A stretch of 64,000 bases of DNA from Caenimonas koreensis DSM 17982 (GTDB lineage Bacteria > Pseudomonadota > Gammaproteobacteria > Burkholderiales > Burkholderiaceae_C), in the NCBI RefSeq assembly GCF_009646335.1, contig NZ_WJBU01000006.1:1-64000 (forward strand), read 5' to 3'. Below, piece after piece: positions 9,462 through 33,355 of this stretch. The position numbers and the translations under genes were made by a program. The notes below the pieces were generated by a model. The model was not told the origin of the DNA, did no database searches, and saw only the letters and a list, made by a program, of their open reading frames with translations. Position 1 is the stretch's first letter. Each line of letters starts with the position of its first letter.

Positions 9462-9468
9462 GGCACGC

Positions 9469-11251: not shown

Positions 11252-11259
11252 CCCGCGCC

Positions 11260-12042: not shown

Positions 12043-12061
12043 CCGCAAGGGCGCGCGACGC

Positions 12062-12712: not shown

Positions 12713-12715
12713 GAC

Positions 12716-14734: not shown

Positions 14735-14736
14735 AC

Positions 14737-15657: not shown

Positions 15658-15661
15658 CGCC

Positions 15662-16570: not shown

Positions 16571-16572
16571 CC

Positions 16573-17091: not shown

Positions 17092-17324
17092 GCGCAGCCA
17101 CATTCCTGGCCAAGCAGGTGCGGCTCGTGGATGCCGGCCTGGTGGCTGAAGTGCCTTCGCCGTGCCTCTCGGTCTGCCGCATGGACCCTGCGACTGATTT
17201 TTGCGAAGGCTGCATGCGCACCATCGACGAGATCGCTGCATGGGGCCGCATGGGCGACGATGAAAAGCGCAGCGTGTGGAAACTGATCGGCATCCGCCTG
17301 GACGCGAGCGCCCAAGAGCCATGA
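17088..17324 (+). CDS. DUF1289 protein with four-cysteine motif
   Basis: 78 residues beginning with GTG at 17088, in a GTGA overlap with the previous stop. The core PCLSVCRMDPATDFCEGC has the C-x3-C ... C-x2-C arrangement of DUF1289, likely a small metal (Zn or Fe-S) site, followed by a helical R(T)IDEIAAWGRM segment. Function unknown; such proteins are common in proteobacteria beside oxidoreductases. The end overlaps the next ATG by ATGA, so three genes are translationally chained. Confidence 0.82.
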   Translation: MSAATFLAKQVRLVDAGLVAEVPSPCLSVCRMDPATDFCEGCMRTIDEIAAWGRMGDDEKRSVWKLIGIRLDASAQEP

Positions 17325-17962
17325 AGCACATCACGTTCTATCTCGACTTCATCTCGCCTTACGCACATCTCGCTTTCGAGAAGTTGCCGCAAGCACTCGA
17401 AGGCCTGAGCTACAGCGTGGACTACCGGCCGGTGCTGTTTGCCGGTTTGCTCAAGCATCACGGCCAGCTCGGGCCTGCGGAGATTGCCGGCAAGCGCGAC
17501 TGGACGTACCGGCAAGTGCTGTGGCTCGCGCACGCGAACGGCATCGAGCTGCAGATGCCCGCGGCCCATCCGTTCAACCCGCTTGCGTTGCTCCGGCTCG
17601 CTGTGGCTTGCGGCGACAACGGGCTTGCCAACCGCTACGTGTGCGAGACGATTTTTCGCCATGTGTGGCGCGGTGGTGCGGACGCGAGCGATGCGCAGCG
17701 ATTCGACGCACTGAAAGCTGCGCTCAACCCAAAGCGCGATCCATCCAGTGACGACGTGAAGAACGAGTTGAAAGCCAACACCGAAGGCGCCATCAGCGCT
17801 GACCTGTTCGGCGTGCCCACCTGCGTGGTGGATGCCAAACACTTCTGGGGCTTCGACGCGCTGCCGATGCTGCGCGCTTACCTGCAAGGTGACGACTGGT
17901 TCAACGGTACTGCGTGGGACGAGGCTGCGCGCGTTGCAGCAGGGCTCGTGCGCCCGCGCTAG
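17321..17962 (+). CDS. 2-hydroxychromene-2-carboxylate isomerase / GST-kappa-like (DsbA fold)
   Basis: 213 residues from the ATG at 17321. The N-terminus (MKHITFYLDFISPYAHLAFE) is the thioredoxin-fold strand plus the S-P-Y motif that replaces the DsbA CxxC in glutathione-dependent HCCA isomerases. GVPTCVVDAKHFWG near the end is the cis-Pro loop. In characterised relatives the enzyme uses glutathione in naphthalene catabolism; here the substrate is unknown. ATGA overlap with the DUF1289 gene. The 3' end overlaps by four bases the stop of the convergent regulator gene. Confidence 0.85.
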   Translation: MKHITFYLDFISPYAHLAFEKLPQALEGLSYSVDYRPVLFAGLLKHHGQLGPAEIAGKRDWTYRQVLWLAHANGIELQMPAAHPFNPLALLRLAVACGDNGLANRYVCETIFRHVWRGGADASDAQRFDALKAALNPKRDPSSDDVKNELKANTEGAISADLFGVPTCVVDAKHFWGFDALPMLRAYLQGDDWFNGTAWDEAARVAAGLVRPR

Positions 17963-18636
17963 CCCAACACGTACCCCTGGCCGCGTACTGTGCGAATGGC
18001 CAGCCGCGAGAAGCGCCGGCGCAACGCGTGGATGTGCACATCGACCGCGTTGCTGCTGATGTCCTGCCCCCAGCGGTAGAGATGGCGTGTGGATTCGTCG
18101 CGCGTCACAACCTGGCCGCGCCGGGACATCAGCAGGTGCAGCAAGTCAAATTCGCGCTTGGGCAGCTCCACGGCCGAGCCTGGCAGGTAAACGCAGCGTG
18201 CCAGCGGGTCCAGCGCGATTTCGTCGGCCACCAGGCATGCGTCGAGATTGCTGCCCATGCCGCGCGCCAGTGCCTCTATCCACGACACAACCTGTTCAGC
18301 TGACGCGGGCTTGCGCCCATAGGCATGCGGCCGCTCGGGTGCGCGCAGCACGTCGTACACCTCGGCAGGGGTGCACAGCACCAATAGCAAAGGACGCGGG
18401 GCCAGTGCACTGCAGGCGCCGAGCAGTGGCTGCCAGCCTGGTGCGCCGGCGCCGGTGTCGAGAACGGCGAGCGAATGCTGCCCCGCCTGGAGCGCTGCGG
18501 CAGCTTCATCCGGCGGCTTGAATTCGACGCGCCAGCCGCGCCGCTGCAGCAGGCTGGCGACCTGCGGCCCCCACGGCGAATCGCCGGCAAGCACCAGAAC
18601 GCATGAGGCATCGGTCGAAGCAGCGGTCGCAGTCAC
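17959..18636 (-). CDS. OmpR-type response regulator with partly degenerate receiver
   Basis: 225 residues with a GTG start at 18636 (no in-frame ATG nearby). The receiver keeps an Asp at about 60 (LAVLDTG) and Lys at 109 (YGRKP) but lacks the N-terminal acidic pair that binds Mg, so phosphorylation may be weak or absent. The C-terminal winged helix is intact (LPKREFDLLHLLMSRRG and AVDVHIHALRRRFS, then VRGQGYVLG). No kinase is adjacent. It is transcribed away from the cytochrome cluster, and a strong palindrome lies just upstream of its start, so it is the best candidate for a local regulator of that cluster. Confidence 0.82.
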   Translation of the reverse strand: MTATAASTDASCVLVLAGDSPWGPQVASLLQRRGWRVEFKPPDEAAAALQAGQHSLAVLDTGAGAPGWQPLLGACSALAPRPLLLVLCTPAEVYDVLRAPERPHAYGRKPASAEQVVSWIEALARGMGSNLDACLVADEIALDPLARCVYLPGSAVELPKREFDLLHLLMSRRGQVVTRDESTRHLYRWGQDISSNAVDVHIHALRRRFSRLAIRTVRGQGYVLG

Positions 18637-18659
18637 GCCCGCCAGCGTCGCGGCGCTTG

Positions 18660-18696
18660 CTTAAGCGCAAATGAAGTTGCTTCATCTGCGCTTAAG
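18660..18696. promoter_or_regulatory. 17-bp inverted repeat upstream of the OmpR-type regulator
   Basis: Arms at 18660-18676 and 18680-18696 pair with one mismatch around a 3-base loop; each arm carries CTTAAG at its outer end. It sits 24-60 bases before the regulator's start codon and about 245 bases before the divergent membrane-cytochrome gene. This fits an operator in a divergent control region; a transcript hairpin is the alternative. The rest of the 306-base gap (18637-18942) shows no gene that I can support. Confidence 0.45.
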
Positions 18697-18942
18697 GCTG
18701 GGGCTCAACGATGGCGCCCATGGCCAGCCGCATCCCACGCAACCTGCGAGAAATTGAGTCATGCGTTTTTGAATGTAAGGACGCCGCAGGCCTTGCACCG
18801 ATGAGCGCGGCAGCGTTCCTGCAGGCAGCACATGGCGAGCCAGCGCCAGTGGCGGCCTGGACATCCGCTTACACGCTTAATGCATGAGCCAGGCCGTCCT
18901 CAGAGACTCGACGCAACGCCAGCTTGCCCATTGCCATCACCG

Positions 18943-19830
18943 ATGTCCGCCACGCTCATACCTACTGTCATCGTGAACGGCCCCGAGCCCGCCAGGCGTT
19001 CATGGGCAGCCGGCACGATCTACCTGGGCATCGCGCTGGCAGTCGTCTTCGCATGGCTGCTGGTGCGTTCCACGGGCCTGCGTGCGGGGTCTGACGCGGG
19101 CTACTGGATCGGCGTGGCCGGTGGTGTGCTGATGGTGCTGCTGTTTGCGTATCCACTGCGCAAACGGGTTCGTTTCATGGCGCGGCTGGGCGCTGCGAAG
19201 TGGTGGTTTGCGGTGCACATGGTGCTGGGAATCGGCGGGCCGCTGTTGATCCTTGTGCACTCCACCTTTCGTGTGGGCTCGCTCAATGCGGGCGTTGCCC
19301 TCTACAGCATGCTCGTCGTAGGCGCGAGCGGTGTGGTGGGGCGATTTCTGTACCTGCATGTGCACCGGGGGCTCAACGGCGAGCGGCAGTCGATGTCGCA
19401 CTTGCAGCATGCGCTCGGCCTCAGGCACGACAGCGTCCACGCTGCGCTGTCTGACACACGCAACGTGGAAAGCGAGCTCCTGGCCTTCGAACGCTATGCG
19501 CTGGCGGGCCCGCCCGGCATGGCGCGACACCTGCGCGCCTTCACGCTCGTGCCGTTGCGCCGGCGCTGGCTCGAGGCGCATTGCGCGAGCGAGCTGAAAG
19601 CCGCCATCCGCGAGCGCGCACGCCGGCAGTCCACCAGCCATGCTGCTGCACGCCACGAGTACCGCAGCCAAAAGCGCGCCATGCAGGACTACCTGCAGGT
19701 CGTGCAGCGCGTGGCGCAGTTCCAGGGCGCTGTGCGCCTGTTCTCGCTGTGGCACGTCTTGCACGTGCCCTTTGTGTACGTGATGGTGGCCAGCGCCATC
19801 GCCCACGTTGTCGCGGTACATGCATATTGA
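18943..19830 (+). CDS. histidine-rich integral membrane protein, cytochrome b-like, of the electron conduit
   Basis: 295 residues from the ATG at 18943. Five hydrophobic segments are visible (about 21-41, 53-71, 86-106, 117-138, 268-295), with a long basic loop between the fourth and fifth. Histidines at membrane positions (H92 and H106 in segment 3, H139/H141 after segment 4, H271, H274, H288 and H293 in segment 5) could ligate b-type hemes. I do not recognise a named family. Because it precedes two multiheme cytochromes by only eight bases, it is inferred to be the inner-membrane link between the quinone pool and the periplasmic cytochrome. Confidence 0.7.
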   Translation: MSATLIPTVIVNGPEPARRSWAAGTIYLGIALAVVFAWLLVRSTGLRAGSDAGYWIGVAGGVLMVLLFAYPLRKRVRFMARLGAAKWWFAVHMVLGIGGPLLILVHSTFRVGSLNAGVALYSMLVVGASGVVGRFLYLHVHRGLNGERQSMSHLQHALGLRHDSVHAALSDTRNVESELLAFERYALAGPPGMARHLRAFTLVPLRRRWLEAHCASELKAAIRERARRQSTSHAAARHEYRSQKRAMQDYLQVVQRVAQFQGAVRLFSLWHVLHVPFVYVMVASAIAHVVAVHAY

Positions 19831-19838
19831 CCCGCCCG

Positions 19839-21641
19839 ATGAAACACGCCCTCATGCGCCTGGTGCGTGTCGGCCTGTGGGTGCTTGCGTGGCTGGCCTC
19901 GTCGCAGGCCATGGCGCAGAACGTCGAATCGGTGCTCTCGCCGGGCCCGCTGGTCAAGAGCCATGCGAAGTGGGACGACAGCTGCAAGAGCTGCCATGTG
20001 CGCTTCGACCGGCAGGCGCAAGACCGCCTGTGTGCCGACTGCCACAAGGACATCGGGCGCGACCTGGCGCAGCGCACCGGCATGCACGGCCGCCAGAAGC
20101 CGCAGGCGTGCCGCAGCTGCCACACCGACCACCGCGGGCGTGACATGAAGATCGCCGAATTCGACAAGCGCGCCTTCGACCACCAGCAGACCGACTACGT
20201 GCTGCGGGGCAAGCATCGCGAGACGGATTGCGGCAAGTGCCACCAGCCGCAGCAAAAATTCAGCGCCGCGCCGCAGGAATGCAATGCCTGCCACCGCAAG
20301 GACGACGTGCACAAGGCATCGCTGGGCACCGGCTGCGCCAATTGCCACGACGAGCGCAGCTGGCGCGAGACGCGGTTTGATCACAGTGTGACGCGCTTTG
20401 CCCTGACGGGTGCGCACAACAAGGCGCGCTGCGAGTCGTGCCACAAGACGCGCGACTACAAGGAGGCGCCGAAGGCCTGCGTGGGCTGCCACCTGAAGGA
20501 AGACAAGCACAAGGCCCGTTTCGGCGAGAAGTGCGAGAGCTGCCACAACACCCAGCGCTGGCCGCAGATCACCTTCCGCCACGACACGGACACGCGCTAT
20601 GCACTGGTGGCCAAACACCGCGATGTGCGATGCACAAGCTGCCACACCGGCACGCTCTACAAAGAAAAAACGGGCAGTGCGTGCATTGACTGCCACCGCA
20701 AGGACGACACGCACAAGGGCTCGCTCGGCCAGGACTGCGTGCGCTGCCACAGCGAGCGTGGCTGGAAAGAGTCGCAGCGCTTCGACCATGACCGCACGAA
20801 CTTTGCACTGCTGGGCCGCCACGCGAAGACGGCCTGCAAAGACTGCCACACCACGGCGGTTTACAAGGAAGCGCCCAGCACCTGCATTGGCTGCCACCGC
20901 AAAGACGACAAGCACCAGGCCAGTCTGGGCGAGCGCTGCGCTGACTGCCATACCGAGAGTGACTGGAAGGCCACGCGCTTCAACCATGCGCGTACGCGCT
21001 TTCCGCTGCGCGAGGCACATGCTGCACCAACGCTTGCCTGCAAGTCGTGCCACAAGGACTTACGCAGTTATCGCGACATTCCAAGGGCCTGCGTGGACTG
21101 CCACCGCAAGGACGACAAGCATGAGGCCCAGCTGGGCACGGACTGCGCAAGCTGCCACGGCGAGCAGCGCTGGACGGGCGTGCGCTACGACCACTCGCGC
21201 GCGCGCTTCGCGTTGACCGGGGCGCATGCGCCCGTTGCGTGCAAGTCGTGCCACCAGAGCCCGCGCTATCGTGATGCGCCGCGCGACTGTGGCAGTTGCC
21301 ACCAGAAGCAGGATGTGCACAAGGCGAGCCTGGGCGTGGCCTGCGAGAGCTGCCACAACACACGCGACTGGCGGCTCTGGCGTTTCGATCACGACAGGCA
21401 GACGAGCTATGCGCTTGCTGGCGGCCATGCCAAGGTTCGCTGCATCGCGTGCCATACCTTGCCAGCGCCCACAGGCCGCAAGACAGCGGCATTGCAGACC
21501 ACGTGCGTGTCGTGCCATGCCAAGGACGACGTGCATGACCGCAGCTTTGGGGCGCGTTGCGAGCAGTGCCACCAGCCCGCCCGCTGGAAGCAGATCATCA
21601 ACCAGCCGGCGCTCTCGCAGCCGGGTGCGAGCCGCCCATGA
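19839..21641 (+). CDS. 24-heme periplasmic c-type cytochrome (cytochrome c3 superfamily)
   Basis: 600 residues with a Sec signal peptide (cleavage likely after SSQAMA, residue 26). I count 24 CxxCH motifs. The first three lie in an N-terminal part; the remaining 21 fall in seven repeats of about 65 residues, each with three hemes and each opening with the pattern F/Y-D/N/R-H ... T-x-F/Y-A-L-x-G-x-H. Each repeat supplies about three extra histidines, matching bis-His coordination. There is no membrane anchor, so it should be a soluble periplasmic electron carrier. It shares an ATGA overlap with the larger cytochrome. The likely role is to bridge the inner-membrane protein and the outer-membrane complex. 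Confidence 0.92.
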   Translation: MKHALMRLVRVGLWVLAWLASSQAMAQNVESVLSPGPLVKSHAKWDDSCKSCHVRFDRQAQDRLCADCHKDIGRDLAQRTGMHGRQKPQACRSCHTDHRGRDMKIAEFDKRAFDHQQTDYVLRGKHRETDCGKCHQPQQKFSAAPQECNACHRKDDVHKASLGTGCANCHDERSWRETRFDHSVTRFALTGAHNKARCESCHKTRDYKEAPKACVGCHLKEDKHKARFGEKCESCHNTQRWPQITFRHDTDTRYALVAKHRDVRCTSCHTGTLYKEKTGSACIDCHRKDDTHKGSLGQDCVRCHSERGWKESQRFDHDRTNFALLGRHAKTACKDCHTTAVYKEAPSTCIGCHRKDDKHQASLGERCADCHTESDWKATRFNHARTRFPLREAHAAPTLACKSCHKDLRSYRDIPRACVDCHRKDDKHEAQLGTDCASCHGEQRWTGVRYDHSRARFALTGAHAPVACKSCHQSPRYRDAPRDCGSCHQKQDVHKASLGVACESCHNTRDWRLWRFDHDRQTSYALAGGHAKVRCIACHTLPAPTGRKTAALQTTCVSCHAKDDVHDRSFGARCEQCHQPARWKQIINQPALSQPGASRP

Positions 21642-24600
21642 AAACGACGGCTGTATCACGCAACACGTGGCTGCACATGCTGGCATGGCTGCTGGTGCTC
21701 GCAGCGTGCTTCATCGCGTTACCGGCACACGCAGCCGGCACCACCGAGTTCGATCACCTGCGCACTGGCTACGCGCTGACGGGCGCGCACAAAGATGCGA
21801 AGTGCGAGAGCTGCCACATCGGCGGCGTGTTCAAGGGCACGCCGCGCGATTGCGAGTCGTGCCACGTGAGCGGTGCGCGCTTTGCGCGGCTCAATGTCGT
21901 CAAGCCAGCCGATCACCTGCCCTCGCAACAGACGTGCGACACCTGCCACACGACCCGCACCTTCACCGGCGCGAAGATGAACCACACGGGCGTGGCCACC
22001 GGCAGCTGCCAGACATGCCACAACGGCGTGCAGGCCAGTGGCAAACCCGCTGGGCATCTGGCAACGTCGGCCACGTGCGACACGTGTCACCGCACCACGG
22101 CATGGAAGCCGGCGAGCGGCTTCAATCACGTGGGCGTCAGCCCTGGCAGCTGCGCCAGCTGCCACGATGGGCAGAAGGCCACCGGCAAGCCGGCCACACA
22201 CACACCGTATCAATCGGTGGCAGGCATCTCGCAAGCCAGCTGCGACAGCTGCCACAAGGCCGGCTTTGCTGCATGGACGCCAGCCAAGCTGCACACGAGC
22301 GTGACTGTGAGCGGCCAGTGCGCCACGTGCCACGCGGCGGCCAAGCCCAATACGGCGATTCACTCGGGCCAGACCGTTTGCGAGACGTGCCACAAGTCCA
22401 CGACGGCGTGGACGGGCGCCAAGGTCGACCACAGCATCTTCAACGCGTCCACCAATTGCGCGAGCTGCCACAACGGCACCGCAGCGACCGGCAAGAATGC
22501 GACGCACATGCCGTCGGGCTCGACCAATTGCCTGACTTGCCACACCACCAGTGCGTGGAAGCCGAGCTCGTGGAATCACACGCAGCTCACGGTGTCGAAC
22601 CAGTGCGCGACGTGCCACACAGGCACGTTCCCGCCAGCGGATGGCAAGTCGGCCACGCACACACCGTACCAGAACGTCTCGGCGCTGTCGTCGGCCAACT
22701 GCGATTCGTGCCACAAGGCGGGCTATGTGTCGTGGACGCCTGCCAAGCTGCACACCAGCGTCGCGATCCTGTCGCAGTGCGCGACGTGCCATGCAGCCAC
22801 CAAGCCGAGCACGGCGATCCACAACGGCCAGACGACCTGCGAGAACTGCCACAAGTCCACGACGACGTGGTCGGCGGGCAAGGTGGATCACTCGGCGTTC
22901 AATGCGTCGACCAACTGCGCGAGCTGCCACAACGGCAGCGCCGCTACCGGCAAGAGCGCGACGCACATCCCGTCGGGCTCAACCAATTGCCTGACTTGCC
23001 ACGCGACCAGCGGCTGGAAGCCGAGCTCGTGGAATCACACGCAGCTGACGGTGAGCAATCAGTGCGCGACGTGCCACACCGGTGCGTTCCCGCCCGCGGA
23101 CGGTAAGTCGGCCACGCACACGCTGTACCAGAGCGTGTCGGGTCTGTCATCGGCGAATTGCGATACGTGCCACAAGGCGGGCTATGTGTCGTGGACGCCG
23201 GCGAAGCTGCACACCAGCGTCTCCATCGTGGCGCAGTGTGCGACGTGCCATGCGGCGATCAAGCCCGGCACGGCGATCCACACCGGCCAGACTGTTTGCG
23301 AGAACTGCCACAAGTCGACGACGACCTGGTCGGCTGGCAAGGTGGACCACGGCCTGTTCAACGCGTCGACCAATTGCGCGAGCTGCCACAACGGCAGCGC
23401 CGCCACCGGCAAGAGCGCGACGCACATTCCTGTCGGCGCGACGAACTGCATCACCTGCCACTCCACCAGCGGCTGGAAGCCGACGTCGTGGAATCACACG
23501 CAGCTGACGGTGAGCAACCAGTGCGCGACGTGCCACACCGGTGCGTTCCCACCGGCGGATGGCAAGTCGGCCACACACACGCCGTACCAGAGCGTCGCGG
23601 GTCTGGGCTCAGCAAACTGCGATACGTGCCACAAGGCGGGCTACACATCATGGACGCCGGCGAAGCTGCACACCAGCGTCTCCATCGTCGCGCAGTGCGC
23701 CACGTGCCACGCGTCGGTCAAGCCCGCCACGGCGATCCACACGGGCCAGACCGTCTGCGAGAACTGCCACAAGTCCACGACGACCTGGTCGGCTGGCAAG
23801 GTGGACCACAGCCTGTTCAACGCCGCGACGAATTGCGCAACGTGCCACAACGGCAGCGCCGCCACGGGCAAGAGCGCCACGCATATTCCGGTGGCGGCGA
23901 CGAACTGCATCACCTGCCACTCCACCAGCGGCTGGAAGCCGACGTCGTGGAATCACACGCAGCTGGTGGTGTCGAACCAGTGCGCAACCTGCCATACAGG
24001 CGCGTTCCCGCCAGCGGATGGCAAGCCTTCCAACCACACGCCTTACCAGAGCGTTGCGGGCCTGGCCTCGGCGAATTGCGATACCTGCCACAAGGCGGGC
24101 TACACATCATGGACGCCCGCGAAGCTGCACACGAACGTGTCCGTCGTCGCGCAATGTGCCACGTGCCACGCGTCGGTCAAGCCCGCCACGGCGATCCACG
24201 CCGGCCAGACGGTGTGCGAGACCTGCCACAAGTCGACCAGCACGTGGTCGAGCGCAAAGGTCGATCACAGCACGTTCACTGTCGCGACCAACTGCGCGAC
24301 CTGCCACAACGGCAGCGCCGCCACAGGCAAGAGCGCGACGCACATTCCGGTGGGTGCCACCAACTGCATCAGCTGCCACTCCACCAGCGGCTGGAAGCCG
24401 ACGTCGTGGAATCACACGCAGCTGGTGGTCACCAACCAGTGCGCAACCTGCCACACGGGCGCGTTCCCGCCGGCAGACGGCAAGTCCGCCACGCACACGC
24501 CGTACCAGAGCGTTGCGGGGCTGGGTGCCGCCAATTGCGACACGTGCCACAAGGCGGGCTACACGTCATGGACGCCCGCGAAGCTGCACACGAACGTGTC

Positions 24601-25870
24601 GGTCGTCGCGCAATGCGCCACGTGCCACGCGTCGGTCAAACCGGCGACAGCGATCCACACCGGCCAGACGGTGTGCGAGACCTGCCACAAGTCGACCAGC
24701 ACATGGTCGAGCGCGAAGGTCGATCACAGCACGTTCACTGTCGCGACCAACTGCTCCACCTGCCACAACGGCAGCGCTGCCACCGGCAAGAGCGCCACGC
24801 ACATTCCGGTGGGTGCCACCAACTGCATCGCGTGCCACGCCACAACGGGCTGGAAGCCGACCAAGTGGAACCACACGCAAGTGATCGTCACGGGCCAGTG
24901 CGCGACGTGCCACTCGGGTGCGTTCCCGCCTGCTGACGGCAAGTCTGCCAGCCACATTCCGTACCAGGCCGTTGCGGTGCTCGCCGCGTCCAATTGCGAC
25001 ACGTGCCACAAGGCTGGCTATGCGGCTTGGACGCCGGCGCGCGTGCACACGAGCGTGTCGATCTCGTCGCAGTGCGCCACATGCCACGCCGCGATCAAGC
25101 CCAACACCACCGTGCACGTGGGCCAGACCGTTTGCGAGAACTGCCACAAGTCCACCAGCCAGTGGACTGGCGCCAAGGTGGATCACAGCACGTTCACGGT
25201 GGCGACGAATTGCTCCAGCTGCCACAACGGCAGCACGGCGACGGGCAAGAGCGCCACACACATCCCGGTGGCCGCAACCAATTGCATTTCTTGCCATGCG
25301 ACCACGGCGTGGAAGCCCACCAAGTGGAACCACACGCAGGTGTCTGTCGTCGATTGCGCGAGCTGCCACTCAGGCGCGTTCCCGCCGGCCGATGGCAAGC
25401 CTGCAGCGCACATTCCGTACCTCACCATTGCCGGCCTGAGCACCGCGAATTGCAGCACCTGCCACAAGTCCGGCTACGCCAGCTGGGCGAACGGCAAGTT
25501 GCACACGAGCGTTGCTGTGTCGGGGCAGTGCAAGACCTGCCACAGCGGCGCGTACACATCGCAAGGCGCAACGGCCAAGCCGGTCAACCACATTCCCGAA
25601 TCGCAGCTGCTCAATGGCGCGGTGATGGAATGCAATTCGTGCCACACGTCGACCTCTTCGTGGGCGCAGCGCATGAACCACAACGGCAGCCAGGGCAGCG
25701 GCGCGGGCTGGTGCAAGGGCTGCCATGCCACGGGCACGAACTACCTCGGCTCCATGTCGCGCATGTCGCTGACGCACCGCACCACCACGCCGGTGCCCAC
25801 CGATTGCTCCACCGCCGGCTGCCATCGCCCGCTGGGCAACAAGGGCGCCGCCTACAGCTCGTGGGACTGA
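21638..25870 (+). CDS. giant multiheme c-type cytochrome, 53 potential hemes, seven hexaheme tandem modules
   Basis: 1410 residues with a signal peptide (cleavage after ALPAHA, about residue 33). I count 52 CxxCH motifs plus one CxxxxCH (CSTAGCH) near the C-terminus. Layout: an N-terminal region with six hemes (residues about 34-186) that starts with the FDH ... GYALTGAH pattern of the 24-heme protein; seven near-identical modules of 153 residues (the last 152) with six hemes each; then a partial module and a C-terminal cap with five sites. Each module has six additional histidines, one per heme, so all hemes can be bis-His. No lipobox or membrane anchor. Rich in Ser/Thr/Ala and poor in hydrophobics, as in surface or filament cytochromes. 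Long frames on other strands here are repeat shadows. Confidence 0.93.
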   Translation: MKTTAVSRNTWLHMLAWLLVLAACFIALPAHAAGTTEFDHLRTGYALTGAHKDAKCESCHIGGVFKGTPRDCESCHVSGARFARLNVVKPADHLPSQQTCDTCHTTRTFTGAKMNHTGVATGSCQTCHNGVQASGKPAGHLATSATCDTCHRTTAWKPASGFNHVGVSPGSCASCHDGQKATGKPATHTPYQSVAGISQASCDSCHKAGFAAWTPAKLHTSVTVSGQCATCHAAAKPNTAIHSGQTVCETCHKSTTAWTGAKVDHSIFNASTNCASCHNGTAATGKNATHMPSGSTNCLTCHTTSAWKPSSWNHTQLTVSNQCATCHTGTFPPADGKSATHTPYQNVSALSSANCDSCHKAGYVSWTPAKLHTSVAILSQCATCHAATKPSTAIHNGQTTCENCHKSTTTWSAGKVDHSAFNASTNCASCHNGSAATGKSATHIPSGSTNCLTCHATSGWKPSSWNHTQLTVSNQCATCHTGAFPPADGKSATHTLYQSVSGLSSANCDTCHKAGYVSWTPAKLHTSVSIVAQCATCHAAIKPGTAIHTGQTVCENCHKSTTTWSAGKVDHGLFNASTNCASCHNGSAATGKSATHIPVGATNCITCHSTSGWKPTSWNHTQLTVSNQCATCHTGAFPPADGKSATHTPYQSVAGLGSANCDTCHKAGYTSWTPAKLHTSVSIVAQCATCHASVKPATAIHTGQTVCENCHKSTTTWSAGKVDHSLFNAATNCATCHNGSAATGKSATHIPVAATNCITCHSTSGWKPTSWNHTQLVVSNQCATCHTGAFPPADGKPSNHTPYQSVAGLASANCDTCHKAGYTSWTPAKLHTNVSVVAQCATCHASVKPATAIHAGQTVCETCHKSTSTWSSAKVDHSTFTVATNCATCHNGSAATGKSATHIPVGATNCISCHSTSGWKPTSWNHTQLVVTNQCATCHTGAFPPADGKSATHTPYQSVAGLGAANCDTCHKAGYTSWTPAKLHTNVSVVAQCATCHASVKPATAIHTGQTVCETCHKSTSTWSSAKVDHSTFTVATNCSTCHNGSAATGKSATHIPVGATNCIACHATTGWKPTKWNHTQVIVTGQCATCHSGAFPPADGKSASHIPYQAVAVLAASNCDTCHKAGYAAWTPARVHTSVSISSQCATCHAAIKPNTTVHVGQTVCENCHKSTSQWTGAKVDHSTFTVATNCSSCHNGSTATGKSATHIPVAATNCISCHATTAWKPTKWNHTQVSVVDCASCHSGAFPPADGKPAAHIPYLTIAGLSTANCSTCHKSGYASWANGKLHTSVAVSGQCKTCHSGAYTSQGATAKPVNHIPESQLLNGAVMECNSCHTSTSSWAQRMNHNGSQGSGAGWCKGCHATGTNYLGSMSRMSLTHRTTTPVPTDCSTAGCHRPLGNKGAAYSSWD
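22196..25405 (+). repeat. seven tandem 459-bp coding repeats (hexaheme modules)
   Basis: Units begin at 22196, 22655, 23114, 23573, 24032, 24491 and 24950; the first six are exactly 459 bp, the last 456 bp. A partial eighth unit starts at 25406. Each unit encodes T/S/N-H-T/I-P/L-Y-Q at its start and six CxxCH motifs. Units 3 to 6 are the most alike at base level, which suggests recent duplication or gene conversion, and the period is a multiple of three, so unit gain or loss keeps the frame. Confidence 0.92.
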
Positions 25871-25911
25871 CCCGCCTGCCACCGAATCGCAACGTTCCAC
25901 AAGCACGATCC

Positions 25912-28101
25912 ATGAAACCGGTCACTACCCATCTCTTTCGCCTGGCGGTCATCGCCGCATCGCTCGTCACCGCCAGTGCGCACGCCCAACTGGTCGACGA
26001 CGTTGAACTGCGCCGCGTCGGCAATGACGCAGTGCTGCAGGTGCGCTTCGTCACGCCAGTGCAATACCTGCGCACGCTGGCCACCGGCAGTGGCGACCTG
26101 GGTCATGTGTATTACGACGTGCTGCCCACGCCAGAGACCATCAACTTCCTGCCGACGGAACGGCGCATTCCTGCCGGATCGGCTGCGCCATTTGTCGTGA
26201 TGACAGACGAGACGGTGGGCACGGCCGAGCGCAGCCGCAGGTTGGTGCTGCGCTTGACGGGCAACACGCCTTTCACGGCGCGCGCAGGCCAGGGCAACCG
26301 CAGCATCGAGATCGTGCTGCGTGACAGGGGTGCGATGGTGCCCGCCACAAGCGGCGCCGCCGGCGCGCCCGTGCGCGACGACAAGGCGGGCGTGTTGCCC
26401 GCACCGTCAGGCACTGCAGCAGTCGGCTCCTCGGAAGCAGAAGCGCGTGCGCAGGCACTGCTTGCACAGGCTCGTCAAGCCGTGGAGCGCGCCGACTATG
26501 CAGTGGCAGTTGACTTGCTGGAACAGTTGCTCGCCCAGCCAGCCACGGCCTCCAGCCAGGATGCGCAAGAGCTGATTGCCGTGGCGCGCTGGCGCGAAGG
26601 TGATCCGCAGCGCGCACGTGTTGAATTCGAGACGTATCTCAAGCTCTATCCGACTGGCCCCGGTGCGCTTCGCGCTCGCGAAGCATTGCTCACGCTCGCG
26701 CCACCTGCACCGGTAGCGGCTGCTGAAGCAGCGGCGGCACCTGCGGTGACGACCACGGTGACGGGGTCTGTCGCCACGTACTACTACGGCGGCCAGTCGA
26801 AGTCGCGCACGCAGGAGTTCCAGGACTCGGCGCTGGGTGGTCTGCCCACACTTGTGTCAGACGCATCGCTCTCCGGCACCGACCAGAGCCAGATCCTGTC
26901 GAGCGTGGACTTGAACTGGCGCCGCAAGGACGCCGACAGTGACTTGCGTTTTGTGCTGCGCGACACGTACAGCGCCGACTTGCTGCGCAACGACAAGAGC
27001 AAGAACAAGCTGTCCGCGTTTTATGTGGACTACCGCCTGCAGTCGCCCGGCTTGAGCGTTCGCCTGGGCCGCCAGTCGCCCACGGGCGGCGGCGTGATGG
27101 GCCGCTTCGACGGCGTGCAGGCGAGCTGGCGTTTTGCGCCCAAGTGGCGGCTGAACGCCGTGGCGGGCCAGCCGACGGACAAATTGCTGGACAGCAGGCG
27201 CTCGTTCTACGGCGCGTCCATCGACGCCGACGCGCTCACGAGCAACCTGGGCGGCAGCCTGTACGTGATCGAGCAGCGCATCGACGGCCAGACGGACCGC
27301 CGCGCCATCGGCAACGAAATGCGCCTGCAGATGGGCGGGCTGTCTGCATCGTCGATCCTCGACTACGACACGATCCTGGGCGGCTTGAACATCGCGTCGG
27401 TGCAAGGCACATGGCAGTCGGCGGACAACACCGTGGTCAACGTGCTGTATGACCGCCGCGCGACGCCGATGCTGATGCTGGGCAACAGCCTGTTCTTCCA
27501 GAACCCGGTGCTCGCTGCACAGGCGACACGGCTGCAGGATTTGCTGGCGGTGCAGAGCGTGTCCCTCTTGCGCCAGCAGGTGAAAGACACGACCGCCTAC
27601 AGCACGCAGGCGATGGTCGGCGTGACGCATCCGCTCTCGCCCAACTGGCAGATCGGCGCGGACATCCGGCTCACGAACATCGGTGAGCTTTTGCCCGTGC
27701 CGGACATCCTGCCCAGCGGCCAGCCCGGTACCGGCAACATCTGGAGCGTGGGCGCGCAAGTGATCGCCACCAATCTCTATTCCTCGCGCGACACGCACGT
27801 GCTGGTGTTCAACCAGCTCAAGGCGCCGACGTACAAGGGCACGCTGCTGCAGTACAACAACTCGTCAACGATAGCGCAGGCGTGGCAGCTCGAGCCATCG
27901 TTGCGTATCTACCAGCAGACCGATTCCACCGACACGCGCACACGCCGCTGGGCGCCGGGCATGCGCGTGACGTATCGCCCCACGGCCAAGCTGTCGCTCG
28001 AGTCGGAGCTGAGCCTGGAGTTCAGCAACATCGCGGGCCCGACGCGCACTGAAACGTCGCGGCGCACGTTCTATTACTTCGGCTTCCGCTATGACATCTG
28101 A
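25912..28101 (+). CDS. outer-membrane beta-barrel protein of the cytochrome cluster, with N-terminal TPR-like part
   Basis: 729 residues with a signal peptide (cleavage after ASAHA, residue 25). Residues about 26-150 form a beta-rich domain; about 180-275 look like TPR-type helices (ALLAQARQAVERADYAVAV and ARVEFETYLKLYPTGPGALR); from about 290 to the end alternate amphipathic strands typical of a porin (FYVDYRLQSPGLSVRLGRQ and TFYYFGFRYDI at the C-terminus). It starts 41 bases after the giant cytochrome. By analogy with MtrB/PioB-type proteins it should hold or pass the cytochrome through the outer membrane, but I see no direct similarity to MtrB and the TPR-like domain is unusual. Confidence 0.75.
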   Translation: MKPVTTHLFRLAVIAASLVTASAHAQLVDDVELRRVGNDAVLQVRFVTPVQYLRTLATGSGDLGHVYYDVLPTPETINFLPTERRIPAGSAAPFVVMTDETVGTAERSRRLVLRLTGNTPFTARAGQGNRSIEIVLRDRGAMVPATSGAAGAPVRDDKAGVLPAPSGTAAVGSSEAEARAQALLAQARQAVERADYAVAVDLLEQLLAQPATASSQDAQELIAVARWREGDPQRARVEFETYLKLYPTGPGALRAREALLTLAPPAPVAAAEAAAAPAVTTTVTGSVATYYYGGQSKSRTQEFQDSALGGLPTLVSDASLSGTDQSQILSSVDLNWRRKDADSDLRFVLRDTYSADLLRNDKSKNKLSAFYVDYRLQSPGLSVRLGRQSPTGGGVMGRFDGVQASWRFAPKWRLNAVAGQPTDKLLDSRRSFYGASIDADALTSNLGGSLYVIEQRIDGQTDRRAIGNEMRLQMGGLSASSILDYDTILGGLNIASVQGTWQSADNTVVNVLYDRRATPMLMLGNSLFFQNPVLAAQATRLQDLLAVQSVSLLRQQVKDTTAYSTQAMVGVTHPLSPNWQIGADIRLTNIGELLPVPDILPSGQPGTGNIWSVGAQVIATNLYSSRDTHVLVFNQLKAPTYKGTLLQYNNSSTIAQAWQLEPSLRIYQQTDSTDTRTRRWAPGMRVTYRPTAKLSLESELSLEFSNIAGPTRTETSRRTFYYFGFRYDI

Positions 28102-28137
28102 GCGCCTGACCTCTCGAGTCCACACACACATCCATCC

Positions 28138-29091
28138 ATGAACGACGAACTCCTGAACCTGCGACGAGGCATCCAGCAACTCGATGAATTGCACCAGGCC
28201 GGCATGCTCTCTGCCGACGGCCACGGCAGCGCCCGCGCCGAACTCGAGAAGGCCATCGTGGCGCTCGTGCTGGCCAAGCCCGCTCCAGCGGTTGATGCCA
28301 ACACCGCCGCGCCATCCGACCAGCCGCCCAGTGCGCCGCTAGCCGGGACGCCAGCGCCCACCCCGGCACCTGATGGCAAAGGTGCATCGCGCGGCCTCTT
28401 GATCGGCATTGCGCTCTTCGCGTTCGCGGCTGGCGGCGCGGGCTACTGGTGGGCAGCTGCGCCGAACGCGTCCTCCGGCTCTCAGTCCACGCCTGTCGCT
28501 GCCTCTGCCGCAGCCGGCGGCCCCACCGCACCGCACCCCTTGGGCAACGACGCCATGGCTTCGATGGTGCAGGCGCTGGCCGACAGGCTGAAGGCGCAGC
28601 CGGCCGATGCCGAAGGCTGGGCGATGCTTGCGCGCTCCTACGCCAACCTCGGGCGGCATGGCGATGCGCTCGCTGCCTATGCCAAGGCCGTGGCCTTGCG
28701 CAAGGACGATGCCGCGCTGCTGGCCGACTACGCGGATGAACTGGCGCTGCAGCAAGGCCGGCGCCTGGCAGGTGAGCCGATGTCGTGGGTGAAGCAGGCG
28801 CTGGCTGTCGATCCGAACCAGCCCAAGGCGCTGCTGCTCGCAGGCACGGAAGCATTCGACCGGCAGGACTACGCACTGGCCATCACGCACTGGACGCGCG
28901 TCGTGCAATTCGGCCCGCCGGAGAGCGAACTCGTCAAGCAGGCCCGCGCCGGGCTGGACGATGCGCGCAGGCAAAGCGGCCAGCCTGCCGTGGTGGCAGA
29001 TGGCTCTGCCGCAGCCGCACCGAAAGGCCCGCTGACCACAGCGCTTTCCACTGCCGGCTTTGCTTCTGCCGCACGGCCTGCGAAGCAATAG
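28138..29091 (+). CDS. CcmI/CycH-like TPR protein, apocytochrome c chaperone
   Basis: 317 residues. One membrane segment at about 85-105 separates a short N-terminal cytoplasmic part from a periplasmic domain with TPR units (residues about 135-275: GWAMLARSYANLGRHGDALAA, ALAVDPNQPKALLLAGTEAF, DYALAITHWTRVVQFGP). This matches the C-terminal part of CcmI/NrfG proteins, which hold apocytochromes for heme ligation; the usual two-helix N-terminus of full CcmI is reduced to one helix. Its place behind two very heme-rich cytochromes suggests a dedicated maturation factor. It converges with the Fe-S oxidoreductase gene. Confidence 0.78.
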   Translation: MNDELLNLRRGIQQLDELHQAGMLSADGHGSARAELEKAIVALVLAKPAPAVDANTAAPSDQPPSAPLAGTPAPTPAPDGKGASRGLLIGIALFAFAAGGAGYWWAAAPNASSGSQSTPVAASAAAGGPTAPHPLGNDAMASMVQALADRLKAQPADAEGWAMLARSYANLGRHGDALAAYAKAVALRKDDAALLADYADELALQQGRRLAGEPMSWVKQALAVDPNQPKALLLAGTEAFDRQDYALAITHWTRVVQFGPPESELVKQARAGLDDARRQSGQPAVVADGSAAAAPKGPLTTALSTAGFASAARPAKQ

Positions 29092-29119
29092 CGCCGCCGT
29101 GCCCTGGCGCGGCGATGCT

Positions 29120-30415
29120 TCAGGCGCTGCCGTGCTTGGTCTGGAATTCGATTCCCATTTGCTGCAGCAGCGCGACCGGCAAGATGCCGCCTGCGCACAC
29201 GATCACGGCTTCATTGGGCAGCACGACAGGCTGGCCTGCGCCGCGCAGCGTGACTTCAGTGGGTGTGATTGCGTCGACCTGCGTTTCCAGCTGCAGGTCG
29301 ATGCGCCCCTCGCGCACCGCCTCGTCGAGTGCCTGACGGTTGGCCTGCTTGACGCGGTTGAATGCCGCCCCGCGATAAGACAGCGTGACGCGCGTGTTGG
29401 GTTGCGCTGCAACGGCAACCGCCGCTTCGAGCGCGCTGTCGCCGCCCCCCACCACCAGCACCGCCATGCCCGCGTATTGCTCCGGGTCCACCAGGCGGTA
29501 GACAACTTTTTGCAGGTCTTCGCCCGCCACGCCCAGCGTGCGCGGCGTGCCGCGGCGGCCGATGGCCAGCAGCACGGAACGCGTGCGCCACTGGCCCGCA
29601 CTCGTGTGCACGACAAAGCTGTCGCCATCGCGCTCCACGCGCTCCATCCGCTCGCGAAAATGCAGTTCAAGCGCTGTGTCGCCCACCACGCGGTTCCAGA
29701 AGGCAATCAGCCGCTCTTTCGAGATGGCGGTCATGCGCACCGTGCCCACCAGCGCGAGCTTGATCGGCGCGGTCATCGCGATCTTGTTGCGCGGGTAGTG
29801 CGACACGGTGCCGCCCAGCGAGTCTTCCTGCTCGATCAGCCGGAAGCGAAGGCCGTGCTCCTTGGCTGCGAGGCCCGCCGAAATGCCCGCGGGGCCTGCG
29901 CCCACGATCACCACATCGAGCTCGCCGGGCGCGGCTTTGCGCCGCCTGATGGCCGCAATCGCCTGCTTGCCTTGCTCTGCAGCTTTGCGGATCAGGCCCA
30001 TGCCGCCGAGTTCACCGGCGATGAAGATGCCCGGCACATTGCTCTCGAAATCGGGCGACACGGTCGGTATGTCGACACCGCGCCTTTCAGTGCCGAACAC
30101 CAGTGTGATCGCCTCGACCGGGCATGCCGCGCGGCAGGCGCCATGGCCGATGCACGATGCGGCATTCACGAGCACTGCGCGCCCGTTGACGATGCCCAGC
30201 GCCTCTTCGGGGCAGGCCTTCACGCAGCCTCCCGAGCCAATGCAGCGCGACGCATTCACCACGGGATGCAGCGATGCAGGCTCGTTCAGCCCGGCCAGGG
30301 TGGCGGCCTCGTGCGCCGCGGCGGCCTTGCGTTCGCGCCGGCGCCGCATGAACACATGCAGCGCAACGCCGGCGGCAGCGAACGCGCCATAAATCGCCAG
30401 GTACTCGTTTTGCAT
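29120..30415 (-). CDS. Fe-S / NAD(P)-binding oxidoreductase (thioredoxin-reductase fold) with membrane anchor
   Basis: 431 residues from the ATG at 30415; the longer frame runs into the divergent response-regulator gene. Residues 5-22 are a membrane helix. Two ferredoxin-like motifs follow: C58-IGS-GG-C64-VKA-C68-P and C88-IGH-GA-C94-RAA-C98-P. Both lack the usual second Cys (Ser61 and His91 instead), so each may hold a 3Fe-4S cluster or a 4Fe-4S cluster with a non-Cys ligand. An FAD site (VIVGAGPAGISAG, residues 170-182) and a nucleotide site (VLVVGGGDSALEA) complete a reductase that lacks the redox CxxC. It may exchange electrons between NAD(P)H and a membrane or periplasmic partner; that is inference. 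Confidence 0.8.
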   Translation of the reverse strand: MQNEYLAIYGAFAAAGVALHVFMRRRRERKAAAAHEAATLAGLNEPASLHPVVNASRCIGSGGCVKACPEEALGIVNGRAVLVNAASCIGHGACRAACPVEAITLVFGTERRGVDIPTVSPDFESNVPGIFIAGELGGMGLIRKAAEQGKQAIAAIRRRKAAPGELDVVIVGAGPAGISAGLAAKEHGLRFRLIEQEDSLGGTVSHYPRNKIAMTAPIKLALVGTVRMTAISKERLIAFWNRVVGDTALELHFRERMERVERDGDSFVVHTSAGQWRTRSVLLAIGRRGTPRTLGVAGEDLQKVVYRLVDPEQYAGMAVLVVGGGDSALEAAVAVAAQPNTRVTLSYRGAAFNRVKQANRQALDEAVREGRIDLQLETQVDAITPTEVTLRGAGQPVVLPNEAVIVCAGGILPVALLQQMGIEFQTKHGSA

Positions 30416-30472
30416 CCGCAAATTCTGCAGCGCGCGGCTGAAGGCCGAATGAAGCGCGGCGACAATGCACCC

Positions 30473-31126
30473 ATGAGGCTGCTGCTGCTCGAAGACGACG
30501 TGATTCTGGGTGCGGGCCTGCGCGACTACCTTCGCATTGAGGGTCACCTCGTGGACTGGTTCACGCTGCTGGTGGATGCGCGCACCGTGGCGAGCGAGCC
30601 TTACGACGCCCTGCTCGTGGACTGGCAGCTGCCCGACGGCTCGGGCGTGGAGTGGGTGCGGCAGTTGCGTGACAAAGGCGTTACCACGCCCATCCTCGTT
30701 CTCACCGCGCGCGACCTGCTCTCCGACCGCATCAAGGGGCTGGACAGCGGCGCCGACGACTACCTGGTCAAACCGTTCGAGCCCGAAGAGCTGGCAGCGC
30801 GTATTCGCGCCGTGCGGCGGCGTGTGGGTGCACAGGGCGTGCCGCGACGGCGCATTGGCGATGTGGAGATCGATTCGTCGGCCCGTGCCGTGTGGCGCGC
30901 CGGCGTGGCTGTGGACCTGACGGCCCGCGAGTGGGGCCTGCTCGATGCGCTGGTCACGCGCTCGGGGCGTGTGGTGTCCAAGTCCGATCTGGATGCGTTG
31001 CTGACTGGCTTTGAGGGCGAGGCCTCCAGCAATTCGCTGGAGGTGCATGTGTTCAACCTGCGGCGCAAGCTCGGGCGCGACATCGTGCAGACGGTACGCG
31101 GCCTGGGCTACCGGATTCCGTCATGA
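30473..31126 (+). CDS. OmpR-family response regulator (QseB/PmrA-like)
   Basis: 217 residues. MRLLLLEDDV at the start, phospho-acceptor Asp50 (LLVDWQLPDGSG), Lys100 (YLVKPFEP) and a complete winged-helix domain (LTAREWGLLDALVTRSG, then SLEVHVFNLRRKLG). An in-frame ATG at 30450 exists, but the family start is at 30473. It overlaps the kinase gene by ATGA. It is divergent from the Fe-S oxidoreductase, with only 57 bases between starts, so the promoters share this space and the pair probably controls one or both sides of the cluster. Confidence 0.92.
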   Translation: MRLLLLEDDVILGAGLRDYLRIEGHLVDWFTLLVDARTVASEPYDALLVDWQLPDGSGVEWVRQLRDKGVTTPILVLTARDLLSDRIKGLDSGADDYLVKPFEPEELAARIRAVRRRVGAQGVPRRRIGDVEIDSSARAVWRAGVAVDLTAREWGLLDALVTRSGRVVSKSDLDALLTGFEGEASSNSLEVHVFNLRRKLGRDIVQTVRGLGYRIPS

Positions 31127-32436
31127 CGAGCAGCACACCGCGCCTGCCTTCGCTGCGCCGCGAACTGCTCAAGGCGCTGACGGTCGTCAGCATGGGCTGG
31201 GTCGTGGCCGTGTTCCTGACCGTGGTGATCGGCGTGAGCCGGCAGGTGGACGACCTGATGGACGGTGCCCTGCAGGAGTCTGCCGAGGTGCTCTACGGAA
31301 TCCTGATGCTGCGAGGCAACGACTTGCCGCTGGCCGCAGGCAGCAGCATGCCCGCACCGCTGCATGACGAGGGGCTGGTGTGGCAGATCGTCGATGAACG
31401 CCAGGCCGTGGTGCTGCGGTCTCACAAAGCACCGACGACGCCTTTGCTGCCGCGATTTGTCGCCGGCTTCAGCAATGCAGCGCCGGACTGGCGCGTCTAC
31501 GCCCTTGAGTTGCCCACGCCGGGCCAGGCCCTCTACGTCGGGCAGCCCGGCACCGACCGCGCCGAGTCGCGCTATGAAGTCATTGCCGTCGTTGGAGCGG
31601 CTGTGCTGCTGGTGGGTTTGGCCTTCGCGCTCTGGCTGCGAAGGCGCATTGTTCGCGCAATGTCGGTGGTGCAGGACATGTCGCTGCAGGTCAAGGCGTA
31701 TGACCCGATGCGCACGGAGACGGACTTGCCGCCCGCCGCGCGCGAGGAGTTTGTCGATATCCGCGAGGCGATCAGGGAGCTCGGGCAGCGCCTGGCAGCG
31801 CGCGTCGAGCGAGAGCAGGCCTTTTCCGCGCATGCAGCGCATGCACTGCGGACGCCGCTCGCCGGGATGGAAGTGCAGCTGGCGCTCGCTATGAAAGAGG
31901 CGCCACCGGGCGCGCAGCCGCGGCTGGAGCTCGCGCGCGAATCGGTCAACCGGCTCAAGCGGGTTGTCACGTCATTGCTCACGTTGTTTCGCAGCGGTGA
32001 GCAGCTGCAGCTGGAAGACATCGACGTCGCGCGGTTGGTCGCGCTGATGCAGGTCGAGGCCCTGGTGGTGCATGTCGATGCAGACTGCAAGCTCAGGGGC
32101 GATGCCAATTTGCTCGCGGGTGCACTGGCCAACTTGCTGGACAACTGCGTGCGGCATGGTGCGCGCGAGTGCTGGGTGAGTTGCAGTGCCAGTGAAGGCG
32201 GACAGACGCTGACGCTGCGCGACAACGGCCCGGGCGTGAGCGACGCGCGTCGCGCGGCGCTGCAGGCCGCACTGGATCAAACGGTATCGAGCGAATCAGG
32301 CGGTCTCGGCCTCAAGCTTGCTGCCCTTGTGGCACGAGCACACAAAGGCAGGCTCACGATCGAGCCTGCACCTGGTGTGGAAGGCGGCTTTGCGGTGAGC
32401 CTGTTTCTCGGTGTGCCTGGGCCCAGGGCCCATTAG
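31123..32436 (+). CDS. sensor histidine kinase (QseC-like)
   Basis: 437 residues, partner of the regulator at 30473. Two membrane helices (about 22-38 and 153-172) flank a periplasmic sensor domain of some 110 residues with no known ligand motif. Cytoplasmic order: HAMP-like linker, HisKA with H240 (AHALRTPLAGM), N box (LANLLDNCVRH), G1 (LRDNGPGV) and G2 (SGGLGLKL). Translationally coupled by ATGA. QseC relatives sense metals, quinone state or small signals; the cue here is unknown, but a redox or metal signal would suit the cytochrome cluster. Confidence 0.9.
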   Translation: MTSSTPRLPSLRRELLKALTVVSMGWVVAVFLTVVIGVSRQVDDLMDGALQESAEVLYGILMLRGNDLPLAAGSSMPAPLHDEGLVWQIVDERQAVVLRSHKAPTTPLLPRFVAGFSNAAPDWRVYALELPTPGQALYVGQPGTDRAESRYEVIAVVGAAVLLVGLAFALWLRRRIVRAMSVVQDMSLQVKAYDPMRTETDLPPAAREEFVDIREAIRELGQRLAARVEREQAFSAHAAHALRTPLAGMEVQLALAMKEAPPGAQPRLELARESVNRLKRVVTSLLTLFRSGEQLQLEDIDVARLVALMQVEALVVHVDADCKLRGDANLLAGALANLLDNCVRHGARECWVSCSASEGGQTLTLRDNGPGVSDARRAALQAALDQTVSSESGGLGLKLAALVARAHKGRLTIEPAPGVEGGFAVSLFLGVPGPRAH

Positions 32437-32505
32437 TCATCGCCGATGTCGGGGGCGGTGCTGTGAATCGCAAGCCCCGTACCGGGCGAGACTGACGCTC
32501 GCGCC

Positions 32506-33015: not shown

Positions 33016-33198
33016 GGGTTCTTCCTTCGCGTGCATTTGCAAAAGCCCATGTTCGGCGCTGCCCTGTGCCTGCTGCTGTCGGCCTGAACGGATGGGGCGT
33101 GTGCGCCATTGCCGACAGCCTGGATAGAGCGGCGTCAGTGCCGGGTCAGGCAGCAGTCCAACAATGCGCGCGACCCCCACAATTTGAAGGAGACTTTC

Positions 33199-33342: not shown

Positions 33343-33355
33343 GACGGGCGCCGCG

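Follow-up and report, generated by a model that had tools for sequence, protein, structure and literature searches.

What drives electrons through a protein conduit that carries 77 potential c-type hemes, and in which direction would they flow? This question is raised by nine adjoining genes at positions 17959-32436 of a 64,000-nucleotide stretch of the genome of Caenimonas koreensis DSM 17982 (assembly GCF_009646335.1, contig NZ_WJBU01000006.1, positions 1 to 64,000 of the forward strand; hereafter the window). An earlier note had described here a contiguous set of a membrane protein, two cytochromes, a barrel, a chaperone, an oxidoreductase and regulators, with ATGA or short gaps between the core genes. 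Re-deriving the genes from the sequence recovered all of them, in the order RR1, IMP (inner-membrane protein), MHCp and MHCe (multiheme cytochromes), BB (barrel), a CcmI-like gene, Fnr, RR2 and HK (Table 1). MHCp and MHCe share an ATGA overlap (21638-21641), the remaining gaps among the core genes are 8, 41 and 36 bp, and the two cytochromes hold 24 and 53 heme sites, which agrees with the note's total of 77. "Fnr" is a label coined in this analysis for the Fe-S/flavin oxidoreductase. Here, we report that Fnr hardly ever occurs without IMP and is a linked component, not a bystander, of the porin-cytochrome type known as PCC3.

By gene content and motifs, the cluster is a typical member of the PCC3 type published by He et al. 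in 2017, which is defined by four genes encoding an IMP, a periplasmic cytochrome, a repeat-rich second cytochrome and a barrel (PMC5566968; this and the other publications are cited for parts of their content). All four genes and the IMP motifs were found in the window: 22 predicted strands in BB, for the barrel; 24 CXXCH motifs in MHCp, of predicted periplasmic location, for the periplasmic cytochrome of ~21 hemes; a 295-residue IMP for the protein of ~300 residues with five transmembrane helices, SGxxG and two WX3HX13H motifs; and, for the second cytochrome, 53 sites, 153-residue repeats and a signal-like N-terminus in MHCe, which is predicted to be extracellular. Published PCC3 clusters, such as Slit_0867-0870 and Slit_1446-1449 of Sideroxydans ES-1 (PMC5566968), share with the window the IMP, a periplasmic cytochrome of 21-27 hemes, the repeat-rich second cytochrome, the barrel and a spacing of ~25-27 residues per heme, while the window differs in the 53 sites of its second cytochrome, its CcmI-like gene and its PmrAB-like pair. 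Both 24 and 53 hemes fall in the published range, in which the record is 85 in one protein (PMC5566968). PCC3 has been reported in Gallionellaceae, Leptothrix and Sideroxydans CL21, where it is termed predicted or untested (PMC10734462, PMC13386937, PMC12442390), electron transfer itself being called untested in the last of these papers. The presence of these genes and motifs supports the reading of the locus in the earlier note, which named PCC3 for comparison, as a porin-cytochrome conduit; the "unusual parts" that it saw are not so, as the cluster is a typical PCC3. The gene order, to which it had looked for confirmation, holds in many genomes, and barrels lacking cytochromes, to which it had looked for refutation, did not appear: all 44 loci with a barrel match have a multiheme gene downstream of IMP (as these loci were picked by IMP, they do not test the barrel independently).

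The four-gene definition, in the part of the paper cited, does not name Fnr (PMC5566968), and we found no publication naming such an Fnr with PCC3; figures and supplements lay outside this search, and Fnr might be drawn there. We fetched 80 PCC3-type loci by IMP (the best 80 of 85 relatives, chosen by two short peptide patterns and not an unbiased sample) and scored as Fnr any protein with over 300 bits to a three-sequence profile. Fnr was present within the fetched DNA of 64 of these 80 loci. It stood directly beside IMP, in divergent orientation, in 54 of them by a strict rule, and was placed otherwise or missed by the distance rule in 10; the strict rule overlooks some neighbours where an over-long open reading frame (ORF) was taken (e.g. 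L050). Fourteen of the 16 genomes whose fetched locus had no Fnr do hold one (best E 8.8e-187 or lower), which adjoined a CcmI, BB, IMP or multiheme gene in 12; in L124, L129 and L134 it adjoined another IMP copy than the one first fetched. One genome (G437) holds a second Fnr.

We then surveyed genomes of the class (370) and of the phylum (397), both sets drawn without regard to the cluster and partly overlapping (e.g. G000, G135). In the class survey a strong IMP occurred in 39 genomes and Fnr in 39, with both in 38, IMP alone in one (G231), Fnr alone in one (G145) and neither in 330. The cut for a strong IMP, ~E 1e-40, was set after seeing a gap between 1e-44 and 1e-17, and the split matches of G355 and G294 were counted as strong. 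The Fnr of G145 lay in three frames on a 3.5-kb contig and adjoined a cytochrome fragment, and ten class genomes with weak IMP-family matches only had no Fnr. Forty-one IMP-Fnr pairs were separated by <1 kb (29 pairs), by 1-15 kb (8) or lay on other contigs (4). The phylum survey yielded a strong IMP in six genomes and a full-length Fnr in the same six; G182 and G445 gave partial Fnr matches in other, longer frames, and no Fnr was found in 18 genomes with only weak IMP-family matches. Pairwise distances of IMP and Fnr were correlated (r = 0.93; 58 loci plus the window), to which shared host ancestry contributes. Co-occurrence in the fetched loci and in both surveys rules out Fnr as a chance neighbour. 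Against so close a link stand the Fnr genes of L123 and L127, which had no PCC3 gene in the stretch examined, and the genomes of L075 (a 1.9 Mb metagenome-assembled genome) and L117 (Terriglobia), in which no Fnr was found at 1e-60. G231 has, next to IMP, only residues 1-121 of Fnr, the Fnr match of G091 is split by an internal TGA, and the Fisher p of 1.5e-49 for co-occurrence in the class survey treats related genomes as independent.

Two groups of loci lay at the margins of the family. In five Acidobacteriota loci (L114, L116, L118, L119 and L120), IMP and Fnr occur together with a 23-heme cytochrome, the gene order differs and no BB was recognised; these possibly represent a distant PCC3 relative. 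The second group comprises two distant IMP relatives (L009, L011) and one weak IMP match (L010), with a 10-heme cytochrome and a CcmI-like gene nearby; Fnr gave no match there, and we regard these loci as a separate, simpler system.

We examined Fnr in an alignment of the window protein with 63 of 64 relatives (the partial L047 was left out); a further alignment (A5) comprised the window and 40 of 42 sequences (L087 and L109 left out). The gene ends at 29120 and likely starts at 30415, giving 431 residues, and the 642-residue ORF over-extends. All 64 proteins have an N-terminal hydrophobic segment with a mean net charge of +3.3 behind it and -0.6 before it, and because the more positive side lies behind the hydrophobic N-terminus, Fnr is predicted to be membrane-anchored with its body in the cytoplasm. 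The window protein carries two ferredoxin-like motifs, CxxSxxCxxxCP and CxxHxxCxxxCP, of which the first, third and fourth Cys are present in 64/64. At the second position, motif 1 has Ser in 35, Cys in 15 and Ala in 14 sequences and motif 2 has His in all 64; a His-ligated Fe-S cluster is a reasonable guess. The glycines of both nucleotide motifs are invariant. R348, likewise found in 64/64, aligns with the first Arg of the HRR motif in a thioredoxin reductase and would favour NADP(H) as the nucleotide. Both this HRR motif and the Cys of YpdA are functional residues.

Over its flavin and nucleotide domains, Fnr matches residues 3-267 of a 328-residue YpdA (Bdr), a thioredoxin reductase-like protein, and can also be aligned with thioredoxin reductases; in addition to these domains, Fnr has the membrane anchor and the ferredoxin-like domain. 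It reached 152.8 bits against TIGR04018 (cut-off 339.9), and among the matches listed no NCBIfam model reached its cut-off with the window protein. Where YpdA has the Cys of GGGPCG, position 176 of Fnr is Ala in 61, Ser in two and Gly in one of the 64, and unlike thioredoxin reductase none of the 64 has a CXXC behind residue 160, in the flavin domain. A function as thioredoxin or bacillithiol disulfide reductase was therefore ruled out, as the thiols are lacking. Compared to both enzymes, Fnr also appears to carry the C-terminal FAD segment in front of the flavin domain. A second stretch (profile 119-159 at most) fitted the YpdA/thioredoxin reductase C-terminus at 1.4-3.1 bits in three of the four PDB alignments listed, with none in the fourth. 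When residues 111-160 of one sequence were moved behind 161-431, the score rose from 77.8 to 87.7 bits for Pyr_redox_2 and from 135.6 to 144.2 bits for Pyr_redox_3, while moving a control segment instead gave 81.8 and 136.1 bits and also let Pyr_redox_2 reach 289 of 291; the gains were 9.9 and 8.6 bits vs 4.0 and 0.5 bits in the control. Because the moved segment raised two Pfam scores above the control, the flavin domain of Fnr is probably circularly permuted, with modest support.

The partner of Fnr in the inner membrane, IMP, was aligned between the window and 75 of 79 usable loci (L078 and L111 are cut by contig ends, L099 and L101 are complete but were left out, and L113 is partial). It has five transmembrane helices (AlphaFold2 model, mean predicted local distance difference test score, pLDDT, 89.4) and the motifs W88-x3-H92-x13-H106 (WFAVH-x13-H), W270..H274-x13-H288 (WHVLH-x13-H) and SGVVG. 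H92, H106, H271, H274, H288 and SGxxG are invariant in all 76 aligned sequences and W88 is kept in 74; two His pairs at a spacing of 13 on two transmembrane helices are found in 76/76, and IMP is a probable di-heme b cytochrome. IMP of the window has no Pfam match, and a few of its relatives match Ferric_reduct (best 8.1e-6) and cytochrome b561 (5.2e-5). DUF4405 is regarded as heme-b-like. Against the PDB, the IMP sequence gave matches only at E 0.12 or worse. Its nearest named relative is that of Caenimonas sp. SL110, at 59%.

The 48 Cys of MHCp are exactly two per CXXCH motif and MHCe has 107 Cys for 53 sites, its single extra Cys lying in the signal region; chance CXXCH motifs are ruled out by 77 sites in two adjacent genes together with this exact pairing in MHCp. 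Non-motif His number 25 of 49 in MHCp and 55 of 108 in MHCe, approximately one per heme in both, and would thus be just enough to supply the second axial ligand (bis-His ligation). MHCp, whose start resembles a signal peptide as judged by eye and which is predicted to lie in the periplasm, consists of three-heme blocks of ~67 residues each. MHCe, predicted to lie at the cell surface, holds seven six-heme units of exactly 153 residues. Since units 1-6 show 75-88% DNA identity, highest between adjacent units (unit 7 reaches only 63-67%), MHCe probably grew by tandem duplication. In 64 uncut relatives of MHCp (loci L041-L120) we counted 24 (42 proteins), 21 (11), 27 (8), 18 (2) and 22 (1) heme sites, and periplasmic cytochromes with 21, 24 and 27 hemes have already been listed for PCC3 (PMC10734462). 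The number of sites was a multiple of three in 63 of these 64, compared to 7 to 59 sites in 52 uncut further multiheme ORFs downstream; larger ones were cut at stretch ends, such as that of L068, which runs into the end of the fetched stretch with 72 sites. On these counts the periplasmic wire would vary in three-heme steps, as expected if it spans a nearly fixed distance, and the outer wire would be free to vary.

Overall, we read the cluster as a trans-envelope conduit of PCC3 type that is linked to NAD(P)H via Fnr and was probably gained as an island, a reading to which we give slightly less than an even chance. NAD(P)H would reduce the FAD of Fnr in the cytoplasm, and electrons would cross the two Fe-S clusters of Fnr to two b hemes in IMP, pass into the 24-heme MHCp wire in the periplasm and continue through BB to the 53-heme surface wire of MHCe, which would deliver them to an acceptor outside the cell such as mineral Fe(III) or Mn(IV), humics or another cell. 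The order of cofactors would be that of NAD(P)H ferric reductases, stretched over the whole envelope. Direction, partner and substrate are inferred here; outward flow is favoured over inward flow, since NAD(P)H donates electrons at low potential; an inward run from Fe(II) to NADP+ needs energy input. Nqr/Rnf-like two-subunit complexes are also thought to pass NAD(P)H electrons to extracytosolic acceptors (PMC11334425); compared to the window, they are unrelated proteins with flavinylated subunits in place of b and c hemes.

Several points weigh against this reading. Electron transfer between IMP and Fnr is deduced from linkage and predicted topology, the NADP preference comes from one motif, and Fnr, whose gene mostly runs divergently to the operon, could have another target. 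For the fold of IMP, Foldseek gave nothing at E<=0.001, and the high rows of VIA-align were helical-bundle look-alikes. The model of He et al. has IMP linked to quinone and the flow directed inward (PMC5566968), which suits the observation in Sideroxydans CL21 that expression of the IMP gene in PCC3 copy 2 rose significantly once cells could oxidise iron (PMC12442390).

More specifically, and more doubtfully, PCC3 could be primarily an NAD(P)H-driven electron exporter and not a quinone-linked iron oxidase, with the permuted, His-cluster Fnr joining IMP in a five-part core. This possibility fits the lower expression of PCC3 on Fe(II) in ES-1 and the occurrence of PCC3 in many bacteria that are not known as iron oxidisers.

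The published view, in which electrons from extracellular Fe(II) or another donor run inward to the quinone pool via IMP and Fnr would be an accessory (e.g. for cytochrome maturation or repair), seems to us unlikely. In addition to the model and the CL21 response given above, PCC3 is found in iron oxidisers (PMC5566968, PMC10734462, PMC13386937), and the His spacing of IMP resembles that of quinone-reactive cytochromes b (PMC5566968). Both PCC3 copies of CL21 were expressed above the mean (PMC12442390). Against this view, Fnr nearly always accompanies IMP, and ES-1 expressed its two PCC3 clusters at a lower level with Fe(II)-citrate than with thiosulfate (PMC8788666). A later ES-1 proteome lists the surface subunit Slit_1448 as 0 in eight columns, with IMP and porin of the same cluster detected (PMC12016527); for a multiheme protein such absence is weak evidence.

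An improbable alternative is a surface reductase in which the same NAD(P)H chain serves metal uptake or stress defence, and not respiration, by reducing Fe(III), Mn(IV) or further oxidised metals. The cofactors, from NAD(P)H over FAD to two b hemes, resemble the ferric reductase/NOX layout, He et al. remark on ferric-reductase-like HX13H pairs (PMC5566968), and the RR2/HK pair is nearest to PmrAB models, at scores under their cut-offs (RR2 vs PmrA, 196 bits, cut-off 330); 53 surface hemes seem excessive for uptake, however, and Pfam recognised no transporter domain among the nine cluster proteins. Least probable of all is an electron capacitor or cell-to-cell wire whose hemes store charge or link cells with a varying net partner. 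The authors of PMC10734462 suggest a capacitor role, and the heme number of the surface cytochrome is very variable; surface storage alone would not need a periplasmic wire with IMP and Fnr.

The remaining genes of the cluster concern the outer membrane, heme attachment and regulation. BB was modelled with a pLDDT of 83.8, and its listed structural matches are outer-membrane barrels. In Caenimonas sp. SL110 (L121; 10600-16400), which repeats the order BB-CcmI-Fnr-RR2-HK, the interval from BB to CcmI contains CcmF and CcmE genes; that of Ideonella aquatica (L131; 11300-16900) contains CcmE and a Cytochrom_C_asm gene. The window cluster is without CcmF and CcmE, and because ccm genes occupy this place in L121 and L131, its CcmI-like gene is probably what remains of a ccm gene set once carried by the cluster. 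RR1 gave no Response_reg match in Pfam at 0.001, so that no N-terminal receiver was recognised, and a regulator at the equivalent place in L041 gave a partial match; the lack of a recognised receiver suggests that RR1 may act independently of phosphorylation.

Table 1. Genes of the PCC3-type cluster of Caenimonas koreensis DSM 17982, in window positions.
Feature	Position	Strand	Supporting data
RR1, OmpR-type DNA-binding regulator	17959-18636	-	PF00486 68.7 bits
IMP, inner-membrane protein with five transmembrane helices, probable di-heme b cytochrome	18943-19830	+	295 residues, 16 His
MHCp, 24-heme cytochrome c, predicted periplasmic wire	19839-21641	+	24 CXXCH; PF14522 113.1 bits
MHCe, 53-site cytochrome c, predicted surface wire	21638-25870	+	52 CXXCH + one CX4CH
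BB, outer-membrane protein: N-terminal beta domain, TPR and 22-strand barrel	25912-28101	+	
CcmI/NrfG-like TPR protein	28138-29091	+	PF23914 79.5 bits (cut-off 42)
Fnr, membrane-anchored (predicted) ferredoxin-like/flavin NAD(P)H-type oxidoreductase	29120-30415	-	Fer4_10 41 bits, Pyr_redox_3 135.6 bits
RR2, OmpR/PmrA-like response regulator	30473-31126	+	PF00072 73.8 bits, PF00486 63.1 bits
HK, sensor histidine kinase paired with RR2	31123-32436	+	HATPase_c 51.2 bits, HisKA 38.3 bits

Compared to its congeners, C. koreensis appears to have acquired this cluster. IMP was absent from all 36 congeners, a set that includes incomplete genomes. Six congeners were inspected for the flanks: in four, the left (DSBA-domain) and right (periplasmic binding protein) flanks lie 2.2-3.8 kb apart, vs 15.4 kb here; in L182 the right neighbour is missing and a UvrA-like gene is 2.1 kb away, and in L177 neither flank was reached. 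Pfam assigned DSBA and Peripla_BP_6 to two flanking genes, and we take the flanking genes to be HCCA isomerase and UvrA. The G+C content of the cluster (0.664) is, however, close to that of its surroundings (0.63). Because congeners lack the cluster and the flanks lie close together in four of six, it is probably an acquired island (17962-33356) in an otherwise conserved place. A plasmid origin was rejected, with no near match among 72,556 plasmid records. Further along the window, an ORF of 1912 residues (34620-40358) is conserved in congeners and presumably represents a doubled UvrA.

We also compared the cluster with conduits of the MtrCAB, MtoAB and PioAB types, which likewise combine a barrel with periplasmic and (in Mtr) surface multiheme cytochromes. 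An MtrCAB-type identity was ruled out, as BB gave no match to the MtrB/PioB model TIGR03509 at 0.01 and MHCp, at 31 bits, fell far under the cut-off of 192.2 for the DmsE model TIGR03508. MHCe scored 251 bits against TIGR03508, above the cut-off, spread over seven matched stretches of its repeats, and 113 bits against the OmcA/MtrC model (cut-off 209). A second locus of the same genome (L146, G000:C42:108000-127900; 2561-18249) does encode an MtrB/PioB-type barrel (392 bits, cut-off 240) and an OmcA/MtrC-type decaheme protein (580 bits, cut-off 209), together with a 9-site cytochrome with a cytochrome-b-like membrane domain (29.6 bits, under the model cut-off). Family models for the subset of ccm genes checked recognised CcmE, CcmF, CcmH, CcmI, a second Cytochrom_C_asm gene and an ABC ATPase at this locus. 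From its gene content, the organism appears to possess two conduits of different kinds.

Since its description in 2017, PCC3 has often been named as a candidate iron oxidase, a function that is so far a prediction (PMC5566968, PMC10734462, PMC12442390). The type itself is thus already known, and the new part is its nearly obligatory Fnr. A linked oxidoreductase that resembles NAD(P)H dehydrogenases hints at the electron donor and the likely direction of PCC3, and Fnr may be usable as a marker to trace relatives of PCC3 across other phyla. If PCC3 is indeed an NAD(P)H-driven exporter, it would offer electrons an unbroken route that starts at a soluble nucleotide in the cytoplasm and leads over b hemes and some 77 c hemes to the exterior of the cell.

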